Positions 57,056-63,555 of a stretch of 64,000 nt of DNA are shown here, in pieces (within the stretch, counting starts at the first letter, position 1; every line of letters starts with the position of its first letter). A program made the translations under genes and the position numbers. This DNA comes from a virus: the IMG/VR virus record IMGVR_UViG_3300009441_000008, positions 1-64,000 of that record. One strand, 5' to 3'. The notes beneath the pieces are model-generated. The model was not told the DNA's origin, did not search any database, and saw only the letters and a list, made by a program, of their open reading frames with translations.

Positions 57056-57427
57056 TTAATTAACTGAAATTGTTCTTTGTGACTTTTTCTTCTTGGTTTT
57101 TGGTAGTAACACCCGTAAAACACCATCTTCAACCTTAGCGGTTATCTTCTTATCGTCTACATTTTCAGGTAAATCAAATACCCTACCAAATGAATTAACA
57201 TACTTTGAGGTCTCTTCCGTCTTTTCGTGTGAAATTTTTAATTGGTTTTCCTCCACAACTATTGATATGTCTGATTTACTCAAACCAGGTACAATAAATT
57301 CAACTAAATGTTGATTATCATCATAAGATTGATTCCACATAACTTGACCGTGTGTTTCACTTTCCTCTGCAATATCAAAGAAATTGTCCACCATTTTAAA
57401 GAATGGGTCATTTTTAAATACTAACAT
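57056..57427 (-). CDS. Hsp20-type small heat-shock protein
   Basis: A 123-residue alpha-crystallin-domain chaperone. QHLVEFIVPGLSKSDISIVV, then NQLKISHEKTEE and the conserved A-x-x-x-x-G-V-L motif AKVEDGVLRVLLPKTKKKKS followed by RTISVN. The last part gives the I-x-I/V tail that holds oligomers. It binds unfolding proteins without ATP. It is divergent from the Clp-type unfoldase, with a 38-nt dyad between them. Small Hsps also occur in T4-like cyanophages. Confidence 0.9.
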   Translation of the reverse strand: MLVFKNDPFFKMVDNFFDIAEESETHGQVMWNQSYDDNQHLVEFIVPGLSKSDISIVVEENQLKISHEKTEETSKYVNSFGRVFDLPENVDDKKITAKVEDGVLRVLLPKTKKKKSQRTISVN

Positions 57428-57599: not shown

Positions 57600-59615
57600 A
57601 TGTCTGTAGAATTTTTTGAAGAGGGAGCACCTCAACAACAACGTAAAGGAAAGAAGGGGAGTTCAACTCCTATTTTAGATAATTTTTCAAGAGATTTAAT
57701 TAAACTTGCTGAACAAGGTTTAATCGATCCAATAATCGGTCGTGATAAAGAAGTTAAACGTATTGCTCAAATTCTCTCAAGGAAAAAGAAGAATAATACC
57801 ATTATTGTTGGAGATGCGGGGGTTGGGAAATCAGCGTTAGTAGAAAAACTTGCACTTATGATTAATGATGGGACATGTCCCACTAATCTAATAGATAAAC
57901 GTATAATGTCCCTTGATTTAACATCATTAGTTGCGGGAACTAAGTACCGAGGTCAGTTTGAGGAAAGAATTAAGGCAATATTAAATGAATTACAAGACGC
58001 ACCAAATGTAATTGTATTCATAGATGAAATTCATACAATGGTCGGTGCGGGAAATGCATCAGGATCAATGGACGCCGCAAATATTCTTAAACCAGCATTA
58101 GCGAGGGGTGAAATACAATGTATCGGAGCAACTACATTTGATGAATACAAGAAGAATATTGAAAAAGATAGTGCATTGGTTAGACGATTTCAAAAGATCA
58201 TCCTAACTGAACCAACTACAGATGAAACAATAGATATTCTAAAAAACCTAAAAGATTCTTATGAGGATTATCACATGGTCGAATACCAAGATAATGTCAT
58301 TGAAACAATCGTTAGTTTATCTAAAAGATACATTACAGATAAACAGTTCCCTGATAAGGCAATAGATATTCTTGATGAATTAGGTTCTGAAAAGAAAATT
58401 AATGTGAAAATTCCCGCTATTATCGAAAAACTGAGAAACCAATCAGATCTAATTAAGTTGGATAAACAAGAAATGGTTAGGAATCAAGATTATGAGAAAG
58501 CGGCGGAACTAAGAGATAATGAGAAAAAGGTCATTAAGAAATTAGAGTCCGAAAAGAAAAAGTGGAGTGTTGAACAAAAGTTAAATAAGAAACCTGTTAT
58601 TATTGATGATGTATATAATATCATAACCGAGATGACGGGTGTCCCAATCACTAAACTTGACACAAAAGAGACTAAGAACCTTCTATCATTAGAAAAGACA
58701 ATATCTAAGAATGTTATAGGTCAGGATAATGCGGTTGAGATTATCTCCAAATCAATTAGACGGAACCGTGTCGGTGTTAGAGGTTCTAACAAACCAATTG
58801 GGTCATTTATGTTTTTAGGATCAACAGGTGTTGGTAAAACACACTTAGCAAAAACATTAGCTAAAACCTTATTTGGTGATCCTGATAAAATTGTTAGGGT
58901 GGATATGAGTGAGTTTATGGAGAAACACAACGTTTCTAAACTTATTGGGTCTCCTCCTGGTTATGTTGGATTTGATGAAGGTGGACAACTTACTGAGAAG
59001 ATTAAGAACAACCCATTTTCTGTTGTCTTATTTGATGAGATAGAAAAAGGTCATAAGGATGTCTTCAACCTATTACTACAGATATTAGATGAAGGTCACC
59101 TAACAGATTCGTTTGGTAGAAAAATTAATTTCACGAACACATTAATAATCATGACATCTAATATAGGTGCTAAGAAAGTTTCTGAATTTGGTGGTGGAAT
59201 TGGATTTAGTGATGATAGTAATAACGAAAAGATTAAAGATTCAATTATTAGAAAGTCTTTAAAGAATCAATTTTCACCTGAATTCCTAAATAGAATTGAC
59301 GATGTAATTGTTTTTGACAAATTAGATAATAAATCACTAAAGAAAATCGTTCAAATTGAATTAGACCATTTAGGTAAAAGACTTTTGGAGAGTAACTACG
59401 AAATTACATTTCATAAATCAGTCGTTGATGAAATCATAAACCGTAATTCTGAGGAAGAGTATGGTGCAAGACCCATAAAACGAATTATTCAGAACCTATG
59501 TGAGGATTTTATTAGTGATAAAATTTTAACGGGTGATATCACGAAAGAGATGGGTATTATATTAAAAATAAAAGAGGGTAATTTAGAAATTCTAAAAAAT
59601 ACCCCCCTTATTTAG
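57600..59615 (+). CDS. ClpC-type AAA+ unfoldase lacking N domain, with IGF loop
   Basis: A 671-residue two-ring Hsp100 ATPase. D1 has Walker A GDAGVGKSAL (71-80) and Walker B VFIDEIHTMVGAG. A short middle region with EKAAELRDNEKK is of ClpC/UVR type, not the long ClpB coiled coil. D2 has GSTGVGKTHL, RVDMSEFMEKHNVSKLIGSP, LFDEIEKGHKDVFNLLLQIL and sensor FSPEFLNRIDDVI. Ile534-Gly-Phe536 occupies the loop where ClpA, ClpC and ClpX carry (I/L/V)GF/L for docking ClpP. The usual N-terminal Clp_N repeats (about 150 residues) are missing, so adaptor and substrate choice must differ. It probably feeds selected proteins to host ClpP. Confidence 0.9.
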   Translation: MSVEFFEEGAPQQQRKGKKGSSTPILDNFSRDLIKLAEQGLIDPIIGRDKEVKRIAQILSRKKKNNTIIVGDAGVGKSALVEKLALMINDGTCPTNLIDKRIMSLDLTSLVAGTKYRGQFEERIKAILNELQDAPNVIVFIDEIHTMVGAGNASGSMDAANILKPALARGEIQCIGATTFDEYKKNIEKDSALVRRFQKIILTEPTTDETIDILKNLKDSYEDYHMVEYQDNVIETIVSLSKRYITDKQFPDKAIDILDELGSEKKINVKIPAIIEKLRNQSDLIKLDKQEMVRNQDYEKAAELRDNEKKVIKKLESEKKKWSVEQKLNKKPVIIDDVYNIITEMTGVPITKLDTKETKNLLSLEKTISKNVIGQDNAVEIISKSIRRNRVGVRGSNKPIGSFMFLGSTGVGKTHLAKTLAKTLFGDPDKIVRVDMSEFMEKHNVSKLIGSPPGYVGFDEGGQLTEKIKNNPFSVVLFDEIEKGHKDVFNLLLQILDEGHLTDSFGRKINFTNTLIIMTSNIGAKKVSEFGGGIGFSDDSNNEKIKDSIIRKSLKNQFSPEFLNRIDDVIVFDKLDNKSLKKIVQIELDHLGKRLLESNYEITFHKSVVDEIINRNSEEEYGARPIKRIIQNLCEDFISDKILTGDITKEMGIILKIKEGNLEILKNTPLI

Positions 59616-62146: not shown

Positions 62147-62812
62147 ATGAATACAATTACAGTTGTTTGTTCAACAAGATCAATAAACCAAGATTACGTT
62201 GACCACGTCAGGAAATTCTTTTCCCACCCAAAAAACCAATATATCTTTGTAGAGAATAATGGTGATAAATCATTAACCGAAGTTTACAACCAAGGGATAG
62301 AAGAATCTGAGAATGATATTGTTGTTTTCATTCATGATGATCTTGAGTTTGAAACTAAGAACTTAAACCCCAAAATAATTAAACTGATCGACCGTAAGCC
62401 TGAATACGGGATAATCGGCTTAGCAGGTACGGACAATTTGATAAGTGGTATGTGGTGGAATGATAAGGACTCTATGCAAGGACAAGTTGGACACATTAAT
62501 CGTGGTAAAAGGTACATGTCTAAGTATTCACCGTCGTTTGGTGATGACTTAAAAGAGGTTGTGGTAATCGATGGACTATTTATGATGGTACATAAGAGAA
62601 GGATTAAACATCTTTTCAATGTAGATTTCGACGGTTTTCACTTCTACGATTTACCTATATGTTTGTTAAATTACATGGAAGGTATAAAAATTGGGGTGAC
62701 AACTAAAATAAAACTATACCACCTTTCAATTGGAGAGGTAGATAAAAAATGGAAAAAGAGTAAATTATTCTTTGAGGCACTCTACGAGAAGTATTTACCT
62801 CTTAAAGTTTGA
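62147..62812 (+). CDS. GT-A glycosyltransferase-like protein
   Basis: A 221-residue protein. TITVVCSTRSINQDYVDHVR is the nucleotide-binding start; SLTEVYNQGIEESENDIVVF ends at FIHDDLEFETKN, the DXD metal site of GT2-type enzymes. A later acidic site lies in VIDGLFMMVHKRR and FDGFHFYDLPICLLNY. The acceptor is unknown. It stands apart from the other glycosyltransferases, just before the tmRNA. Confidence 0.8.
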   Translation: MNTITVVCSTRSINQDYVDHVRKFFSHPKNQYIFVENNGDKSLTEVYNQGIEESENDIVVFIHDDLEFETKNLNPKIIKLIDRKPEYGIIGLAGTDNLISGMWWNDKDSMQGQVGHINRGKRYMSKYSPSFGDDLKEVVVIDGLFMMVHKRRIKHLFNVDFDGFHFYDLPICLLNYMEGIKIGVTTKIKLYHLSIGEVDKKWKKSKLFFEALYEKYLPLKV

Positions 62813-62839
62813 CTTTCCATTCCTTTATGTGTATATTAG
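62809..62839 (+). promoter_or_regulatory. Early-type promoter TTG-N20-TATATTAG
   Basis: TTG at 62809-62811 (in TTTGACTTT), exactly 20 nt, TATATTAG at 62832-62839, 17 nt before the ATG at 62857. Likely also transcribes the tmRNA. Confidence 0.6.
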
Positions 62840-62856
62840 AGTATAAAACAATTATT

Positions 62857-63123
62857 ATGAAAAAAATCATCGCATTCTTTAAAAGACTATTTGGTGTTAA
62901 GGCAGAGGTTATTGTAATCCCCGAACCAACTAAAAAGAAAAGAAAACCAAGGAATAAAAGAAAACCTAAACCTAAGGTAACTGAGGATATGAAAAAACCA
63001 ATCCTTAATGAAGAACCTAAGAAAAAAAGGAAACCAAGACCAAAAAGAAAACCAAAACCAAGAACTGATGGTGGAGAACCTTATGTGAGTGGTAGTGGAA
63101 GACAACATCACAACAAAAAATAA
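62857..63123 (+). CDS. Small very basic Lys/Pro/Arg-rich protein
   Basis: An 88-residue protein. MKKIIAFFKRLFGVKAEVIV is an amphipathic helix. It is followed by two runs of KKKRKPR-N/P-KRKPKPK, similar to AT-hook-like or histone-tail sequences that bind DNA or RNA, and a Gly/Ser/His end. The ATG at 62857 is used; an upstream reading passes through the promoter. The stop codon lies 2 nt before the tmRNA 5' end, so both are probably on one transcript. Confidence 0.55.
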   Translation: MKKIIAFFKRLFGVKAEVIVIPEPTKKKRKPRNKRKPKPKVTEDMKKPILNEEPKKKRKPRPKRKPKPRTDGGEPYVSGSGRQHHNKK

Positions 63124-63125
63124 AT

Positions 63126-63524
63126 GGGGGTGAGTTGGCATTGATTGGCGTTGTCAATCGTACGGGGCACGTAGTCAAACTTCATCTATGACTTTAATCC
63201 ATGATGGAAATTTTCAGACGGCAACGTTTATAGTGAAATGGCAGTATTAGGTCTTGTATCTGATAATGTCGCAGTTAACGCATAACTAAGTTAGTGTTAA
63301 CAACGGGTCGGTGGACATATACCTTGGAACAGAAGTCCTTAAAGTGTGACACCACTTAAAAGTGTTAGAGGTGTAAGGTCGTCTCTTTAAATAAGGATTG
63401 GACCGAGGATGTTAGTTTCCTCTAAATAACTTTCTATTTCGAAGTGTTAGAAAATACTGTTCTAAACGTGTAGTCCTTTATGGGTGAGACGAACAAGACG
63501 CGGGTTCGACACCCGCCACCTCCA
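63126..63524 (+). ncRNA. ssrA: tmRNA (ssrA), one-piece
   Basis: A 399-nt tmRNA that rescues stalled ribosomes. Acceptor stem GGGGGTG (63126-63132)/CACCTCC (63517-63523) pairs fully with one G-U. The T arm is GCGGG-TTCGACA-CCCGC (63500-63516), as in bacterial tmRNAs. Discriminator A; CCA not encoded. The tag reading frame ends TCT GAT AAT GTC GCA GTT AAC GCA TAA (stop 63283-63285). The stop lies in the hairpin GTTAACGC...GTGTTAAC, as in known tmRNAs. The tag end SDNVAVNA aligns with the canonical NDNYALAA. The resume codon is uncertain (tag up to EMAVLGLVSDNVAVNA). Confidence 0.9.
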
Positions 63525-63526
63525 CA

Positions 63527-63555
63527 AAAGGGAATCGTAATGGTTCCCTTTTTTT
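63527..63555 (+). terminator. Terminator after tmRNA
   Basis: Stem AAAGGGAA/TTCCCTTT (9-nt loop) followed by seven T, 3 nt past the tmRNA discriminator base. Confidence 0.85.

Follow-up and report, generated by a model that had tools for sequence, protein, structure and literature searches.

Why phages carry tmRNA genes is an old question; phage tmRNAs are known and, to our knowledge, their purpose is a guess. The question is raised again by one locus in the window analysed here, a 64,000-nucleotide stretch (positions 1 to 64,000) of the IMG/VR virus record IMGVR_UViG_3300009441_000008. A sequence-only reading had recognized a phage tmRNA there and had proposed that its tag, ending SDNVAVNA, gives proteins a fate other than the one given by the host's tag, with the replacement of a final LAA by VNA as the key change. 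The observation of a phage tmRNA is confirmed, and is larger than first stated.

A complete tmRNA gene

A search with tmRNA models upholds the proposed fold. The Rfam model RF00023 matches with 72.8 bits (gathering score, 47; E = 2.2 × 10−26) over its whole length, model positions 1–374 of 374 (Table 1), and no second RF00023 match occurs in the 69,004-base virus record; ARAGORN, run on the same locus, called no tmRNA. Both halves of the tRNA-like domain are present and pair, as claimed from the letters, and the third pair of the acceptor stem is G.U (63128 with 63521), a mark of alanine charging. The mature 3′ part stops at the discriminator A (63524); CCA is not encoded, and ACAA comes next. 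The consensus scan that gave the terminator-like hairpin found 2 such sites in the region, compared with 0.7 expected. Directly 5′ of the tmRNA lies a 104-aa open frame rich in Lys, Pro and Arg (62809–63123, plus strand) with no Pfam match, and a similar frame is found in the related record L010 (11525–11824).

Table 1 Coordinates in the window of the tmRNA features and of the upstream unfoldase gene
Feature	Position	Strand	Basis
ClpC-type double-AAA unfoldase, 671 aa, no Clp_N; proposed tag reader	57600–59615	+	Pfam and PDB matches
tmRNA gene	63126–63527	+	Rfam RF00023; relatives L010 and L012
Acceptor stem, 5′ strand GGGGGTG	63126–63132	+	Sequence reading; paired in RF00023 alignment
Tag reading frame, GGC...GCA TAA, encoding GNVYSEMAVLGLVSDNVAVNA, then stop	63220–63285	+	Translation; resume context; in-frame selection
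Hairpin round last tag codons and stop (63274–63281 with 63294–63301)	63274–63301	+	Fold of window stretch
Acceptor stem, 3′ strand CACCTCC	63517–63523	+	Sequence reading; paired in RF00023 alignment
Terminator-like hairpin with T run, 3′ of tmRNA	63526–63552	+	Consensus scan

Frame and length of the tag

Translated from GGC (63220), the complete window tag is GNVYSEMAVLGLVSDNVAVNA, 21 residues in length. We placed the start there, and with it the length, because GGC in similar surroundings is where the tmRNAs of Bacteroidota cells resume: GGC is preceded, for example, by TTTTAAAC in those cells and by TTTTAGAC or TTCAAAC in the phages. Start and frame are further supported by relatives, which keep the peptide through synonymous change; between the tag of L010 (GNVYSQMELMGLVSVDSKVAVA) and that of the window, a serine codon differs in all three bases (AGT to TCA) and the residue is the same. 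The sequence-only reading had the right frame and the right end, SDNVAVNA (63259–63282, before the stop at 63283–63285), and that frame is upheld by resume context and selection; what had been seen was the last third alone, and a 12-residue extension had been missed. It is almost certain that the window encodes a tmRNA with a 21-residue tag. As in other tmRNAs, there is an internal frame with a stop, and this frame is conserved and selected; its translation we infer from sequence. A canonical ssrA tag is short and ends in LAA or close to it, whereas this tag has 21 residues and ends in VNA.

Two other readings of the tag region were rejected. The +1 frame gives ATFIVKWQY and then a stop, and is ruled out because selection tracks the GGC frame; the short tag that ARAGORN proposes for L010 (VDSKVAVA) is ruled out because the conserved peptide begins at GGC. 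The hairpin round the last tag codons, when required to centre on the stop, is found in 92 of 100 tag-family members compared with 1,007 of 2,000 mononucleotide shuffles, a clearer result than that of a looser count (98 of 104, compared with 70% of shuffles).

A family of long tags selected as peptides

Homologous tags of 20–23 residues occur at 121 of 240 loci among the matches listed in two scans of viral DNA. The first scan (pattern TAAACGTGTAGN{15,44}GGGTTCGA) gave at least 120 stretches and, among the 120 listed, 98 have a long tag, 7 have another tag, 12 are incomplete loci and 3 were not classed. The second scan (TAAGCATGTAG with the same arm) gave at least 120 further stretches; the 120 listed comprise 23 long tags, 57 other tags, many of them host-like, 30 incomplete loci and 10 that were not classed. 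A first probe returned 12 stretches, with a tmRNA in 2. Together with loci found through linkage to Clp genes (see below), the scans define a long-tag set of 155 loci, some sharing a contig; their tags come in 101 distinct nucleotide versions, which encode 92 peptides. The tag has 21 residues in 75 of the 101 distinct versions, and 20, 22 or 23 in the others.

Among the 75 distinct 21-residue tags, heterozygosity is highest at the third codon position (0.39, 0.29 and 0.53 by position), and pN/pS is 0.37–0.63 in frame compared with 0.74–0.84 and 1.16–2.39 in the shifted frames. Selection therefore acts on the tag as a peptide. The most constant positions are 1 (G), 6 (K), 7 (M/L), 11–12 (GL), 18 (V) and 21 (A), where position 11 was fixed as G by the motif search and has independent support from all 7 of the tags that were inspected by eye. 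According to the position table, 16 of the 21 positions are limited to few residues.

These comparisons shift attention away from the VNA ending, which is found in 2 of the 101 distinct tags; 64 end in VA and 18 in AA, and a hydrophobic, Ala-ended C-terminus is present in 98. E. coli ClpXP accepts tags that end in LVA, so the loss of LAA by itself says little about a change of fate. The novelty lies instead in the 12-residue extension, which a group of phages shares and conserves, with the VNA ending a minor variant.

The family is probably under-annotated, because ARAGORN fails at most long-tag loci (no tmRNA in 83 of the 155, and a different tag in 32). We found no description of it in the open-licence literature searched. 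Pfam gave no match for the window tag and one weak match among 36 tags (E = 0.14). A tblastn search of deposited phages with the consensus tag gave no match, the query being too short to be informative. Three phage tmRNAs, compared with deposited phages by blastn, matched in pieces of at most 9% coverage (among 60 of 233 matches listed), and further runs at E = 1 × 10−4 gave no match. A search for tag-like C-termini in 22,504 open frames, drawn from the window and the 155 loci, found none; its 13 weak matches (E from 3 to 41) are to non-tags.

Other viral tags are of different kinds. Host-type Bacteroidota tags occur on some viral contigs (L288, L314, L322 and L369 among them), which are outside the Clp counts given below. 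Long tags of another sort have about 30 residues (L015, L297, L310 and L311) or 33 (L053); the first four form a separate group with 29–31 residues by ARAGORN, for example ANDQSFAMTVAEADALLNSFEFEAAEALAA.

Cell tmRNAs and the probable host

A scan of cell genomes with the pattern of the first viral scan gave at least 117 loci, many from Bacteroidota. The Bacteroidota tags have 8–10 residues, for example GENNYALAA, GNNSYALAA and GNTQYAMAA, and the long phage tag was not seen in the 117 cell loci listed; stray motif matches in nine loci were judged by eye to be non-tags. ARAGORN reports tags of about 20 residues, of different sequence, in some non-Bacteroidota cell loci (L215 and L223 among them). 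The proposal that the phage tag is unlike that of the host holds for the cell tags sampled, a set of Bacteroidota that may not include the host.

The GGC resume type, the few Shine–Dalgarno cores (2 of 41 larger open reading frames) and the GC content of 34% suggest that the host is probably a member of the Bacteroidota; few such cores and a GC content of this order are usual for Bacteroidota phages. A blastn search with the window tmRNA leaves the host unsettled, as the 12 best matches listed are just T-arm matches of 29–31 nt, one of them (L165) to a non-Bacteroidota sequence.

A ClpC-type unfoldase without its N-domain

The window phage is T4-like, with gp23, a gp20 portal, a T4-type terminase and a tail sheath. 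The sequence-only reading had referred to a Clp protein of the phage, and such a gene exists; in this phage, as in its relatives, it lies upstream of the tmRNA on the same strand. Pfam resolves two AAA modules, a middle UVR motif and a D2-small domain, and the best PDB relative is ClpC (705.9 bits). Clp_N (PF02861) was sought in the window record without a match and is found in 1 of 48 long-tag records, L039, in which the unfoldase keeps this domain and the tag has an unusual 23 residues; this is a single case. In ClpC, a [LIV]GF tripeptide loop docks ClpP. The window unfoldase has IGF in the loop that holds this VGF in B. subtilis ClpC, but the two tripeptides are two residues out of register when the proteins are aligned; in an alignment of 15 phage unfoldases, all 15 have [LIV]GF. 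An HSP20-type small heat-shock gene (57056–57427, minus strand) adjoins the unfoldase gene and is divergent from it.

A profile of 36 tags searched against PDB chains matched ClpC N-domains only (15 sequences; best E = 1.8). The match is striking because the phage ClpC is without that domain. We do not count it as evidence, because control profiles do no worse: unrelated proteins were matched at E = 0.67, 1.1 and 1.6 by one reversed and two column-shuffled profiles, and when the 26 real tags behind these controls were themselves made into a profile, it matched no PDB chain. Mimicry of the ClpC N-domain by the tag was rejected on these grounds. A more speculative idea is that the tag may mimic the ClpP-docking IGF/IGL loop.

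Linkage of the long tag to the unfoldase

To what extent do tag and unfoldase occur together? The Clp D2-small domain is present in 44 of 49 long-tag records and in 8 of 8 more (52 of 57), compared with 1 of 29 viral records whose tmRNA has a different tag. The five long-tag records without it have no above-cut-off gp23 either, and may be fragments. The gp23 protein scores over the cut-off in 41 of the 49 and in 8 of the 8, and all 41 of the former have the Clp domain; of 6 records in which gp23 accompanies a different tmRNA tag, 1 has it. These counts include records that nearly duplicate one another in size and tag (L023, L059 and L070), and L002 is the sole tmRNA-less phage record in the comparison. 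In all 47 loci that hold both genes, the tmRNA lies 1.2–5.2 kb downstream of the unfoldase gene on the same strand; in some other records the two are farther apart, by about 20 kb in those of L080 and L125 and by far more in L039.

Viewed from the unfoldase, 21 of 80 viral Clp loci show a long-tag tmRNA within flanks of up to 10 kb per side, often shorter. Nineteen larger Clp records have no tmRNA nearby; 12 of them have one elsewhere, with the long tag in 12 of 12, and the remaining 7, some of which may be fragments, have no tmRNA over the cut-off. The link is not exclusive: no Clp D2 match was found in the records of L015, L053, L297, L310 or L311, the phages with long tags of another sort. 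Given the 3′ RNA part, distances between tags correlate with those between unfoldases (partial r = 0.42, permutation P = 0.001, 32 loci), a correlation in which shared ancestry remains. The co-occurrence itself may reflect shared ancestry, because the gp23-bearing long-tag phages form one T4-like group.

Other components of the proposed pathway are less regularly present. ClpP is found in 21 of the 49 long-tag records and not in 28, the window's record among the latter; one phage ClpP that was scored has 252 bits with the ClpP model (curated cut-off, 361) compared with 74 with a head-maturation model. SmpB has a match in 2 of the 49 and none in the window record. Because these two phages (records of L071 and L116; G022 83981–84397 and G043 262496–262912) encode SmpB too, a fuller phage trans-translation set exists.

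Possible fates of the tagged proteins

The reading that we prefer is that the tag is a phage degron for the phage's own unfoldase working on ClpP, and for the mechanism as a whole this preference is tentative, somewhat short of an even chance. A T4-like phage with a probable Bacteroidota host would make its own tmRNA, which would be charged with alanine and served by host SmpB. The RNA would enter ribosomes stalled on broken mRNAs, switch them to GGC 63220 and append Ala plus GNVYSEMAVLGLVSDNVAVNA to the unfinished proteins. The long tag would then be read mainly by the N-domain-less ClpC-type phage unfoldase, which would dock through its IGF loop on host ClpP or, in many larger relatives, perhaps on phage ClpP. 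Tagged fragments would be destroyed, and ribosomes and amino acids would be freed while the phage dismantles its host. Use of the tag by the phage's own unfoldase, which the sequence-only reading had suggested, is plausible.

A host protease, ClpXP or another, might still read the tag, with the extension tuning binding or providing a longer unstructured start, and with the unfoldase co-inherited for assembly or disaggregation. The VA or AA ending of 82 of the 101 tags is consistent with this, as are the lack of a Clp D2 match in phages whose long tags are of another sort, the 28 records without ClpP and a T4-related group with predicted Bacteroidota hosts that has a core Clp ATPase and for which tmRNA is absent from the main text of the describing paper (PMC12619734). 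We nevertheless consider it somewhat unlikely, since it explains neither the conserved and selected 12-residue extension nor why the unfoldase is present in 52 of the 57 records with a long tag compared with 1 of 29 others. The same linkage might arise by common descent if the tmRNA mainly frees ribosomes and the tag is loosely constrained. Membership of one T4-like group and a pN/pS that is moderate rather than very low fit such an account, which the clear frame signal and the 16 restricted positions make improbable.

The tag could serve something other than degradation. Conservation takes in the internal [LIV]-G-L and the K/E-rich part as well as the C-terminus, and an HSP20 gene adjoins the unfoldase gene, as might be expected if the tag protects, solubilizes or localizes rescued proteins or passes them to the phage unfoldase for refolding; the degron-like C-terminus of 98 of 101 tags and the invariant [LIV]GF of the unfoldases argue against this and make it, too, an improbable account. 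That the RNA is an untranslated decoy, titrating SmpB or blocking host trans-translation, recalls a DS6A phage sequence with a tRNA-like domain only that has been discussed as a possible inhibitor (PMC4131195, in the sections consulted). Here the family model matches the whole RNA, selection acts on the encoded peptide, and a decoy needs no tag; we regard this as highly improbable.

A wider form of the preferred reading is unlikely as a whole. It holds that a widespread group of T4-like, probably Bacteroidota phages would run a host-orthogonal channel, with a private 20–23-residue degron that is ignored by host ClpX and read by phage N-domain-less ClpC, and that the private tags of other lineages would be independent; if true, proteins cut short during the takeover would be recycled on the phage's terms. 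What these phages rewrite is the part of the tmRNA on which a tagged protein's fate depends; it is kept under selection in many viruses, mostly together with an unfoldase gene. Because of this pairing, the old question of why phages carry tmRNA is now testable, and it could yield a tag–protease pair orthogonal to those in use.

Comparison with known systems

The window tmRNA shares its full fold, the GGC resume codon and a like context with the Bacteroidota cell tmRNA (ssrA, GENNYALAA type); the cell tags have 8–10 residues and end in LAA, MAA or FAA, whereas those of the phage family have 20–23. Phage tmRNAs are established in mycobacteriophages, Bacillus phage G, Streptomyces phages, Melnitz and huge phages, and for Melnitz a use in degrading host proteins has been proposed; in the accessible parts of these accounts, no conserved long tag is described and no phage unfoldase is discussed (PMC4131195, PMC7162821, PMC9004378). 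Streptomyces phage tags, as deposited, have 11–13 residues and end in ALAA.

Deposited phages also include permuted tmRNAs. One (RF04321, 64.7 bits; L472 8995–9219) is in the cultured Chryseobacterium phage MA9V-3 (PV245944.1), with the 17-residue ARAGORN tag GNVIDINKYVAKLEVAA and, upstream, a 279-aa AAA protein that is deposited as ClpX and scores far under the ClpX cut-offs. Another (RF04321, 70.6 bits; L473 2977–3166), absent from the deposited annotation, is in a crAss-like Bohxovirus (PV686213.1), with a tag read by eye as GNFNVVDYTCVA. Staphylococcus and Listeria ‘phage’ records (OR844998.1, OR847363.1 and others) have long Clp matches at about 50% identity and could derive from contaminating bacteria.

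The Moraphages, large aquatic T4-related phages with T4-type structural genes, a core Clp ATPase (VOG02072) and predicted Bacteroidota hosts, resemble the window phage in the structural genes and the ATPase, a likeness by description; the word tmRNA is absent from the main text of that paper (PMC12619734).

A long tag with its own reader has a counterpart in cells. The tag of Mesoplasma florum has 27 residues. It is paired with a cognate Lon that is orthogonal to the E. coli protease (PMC9097571, in the part available), a precedent that counts for a tag with a cognate protease. The M. florum pair is cellular and read by Lon, whereas the window presents a phage tag with a Clp-type unfoldase as its putative reader.
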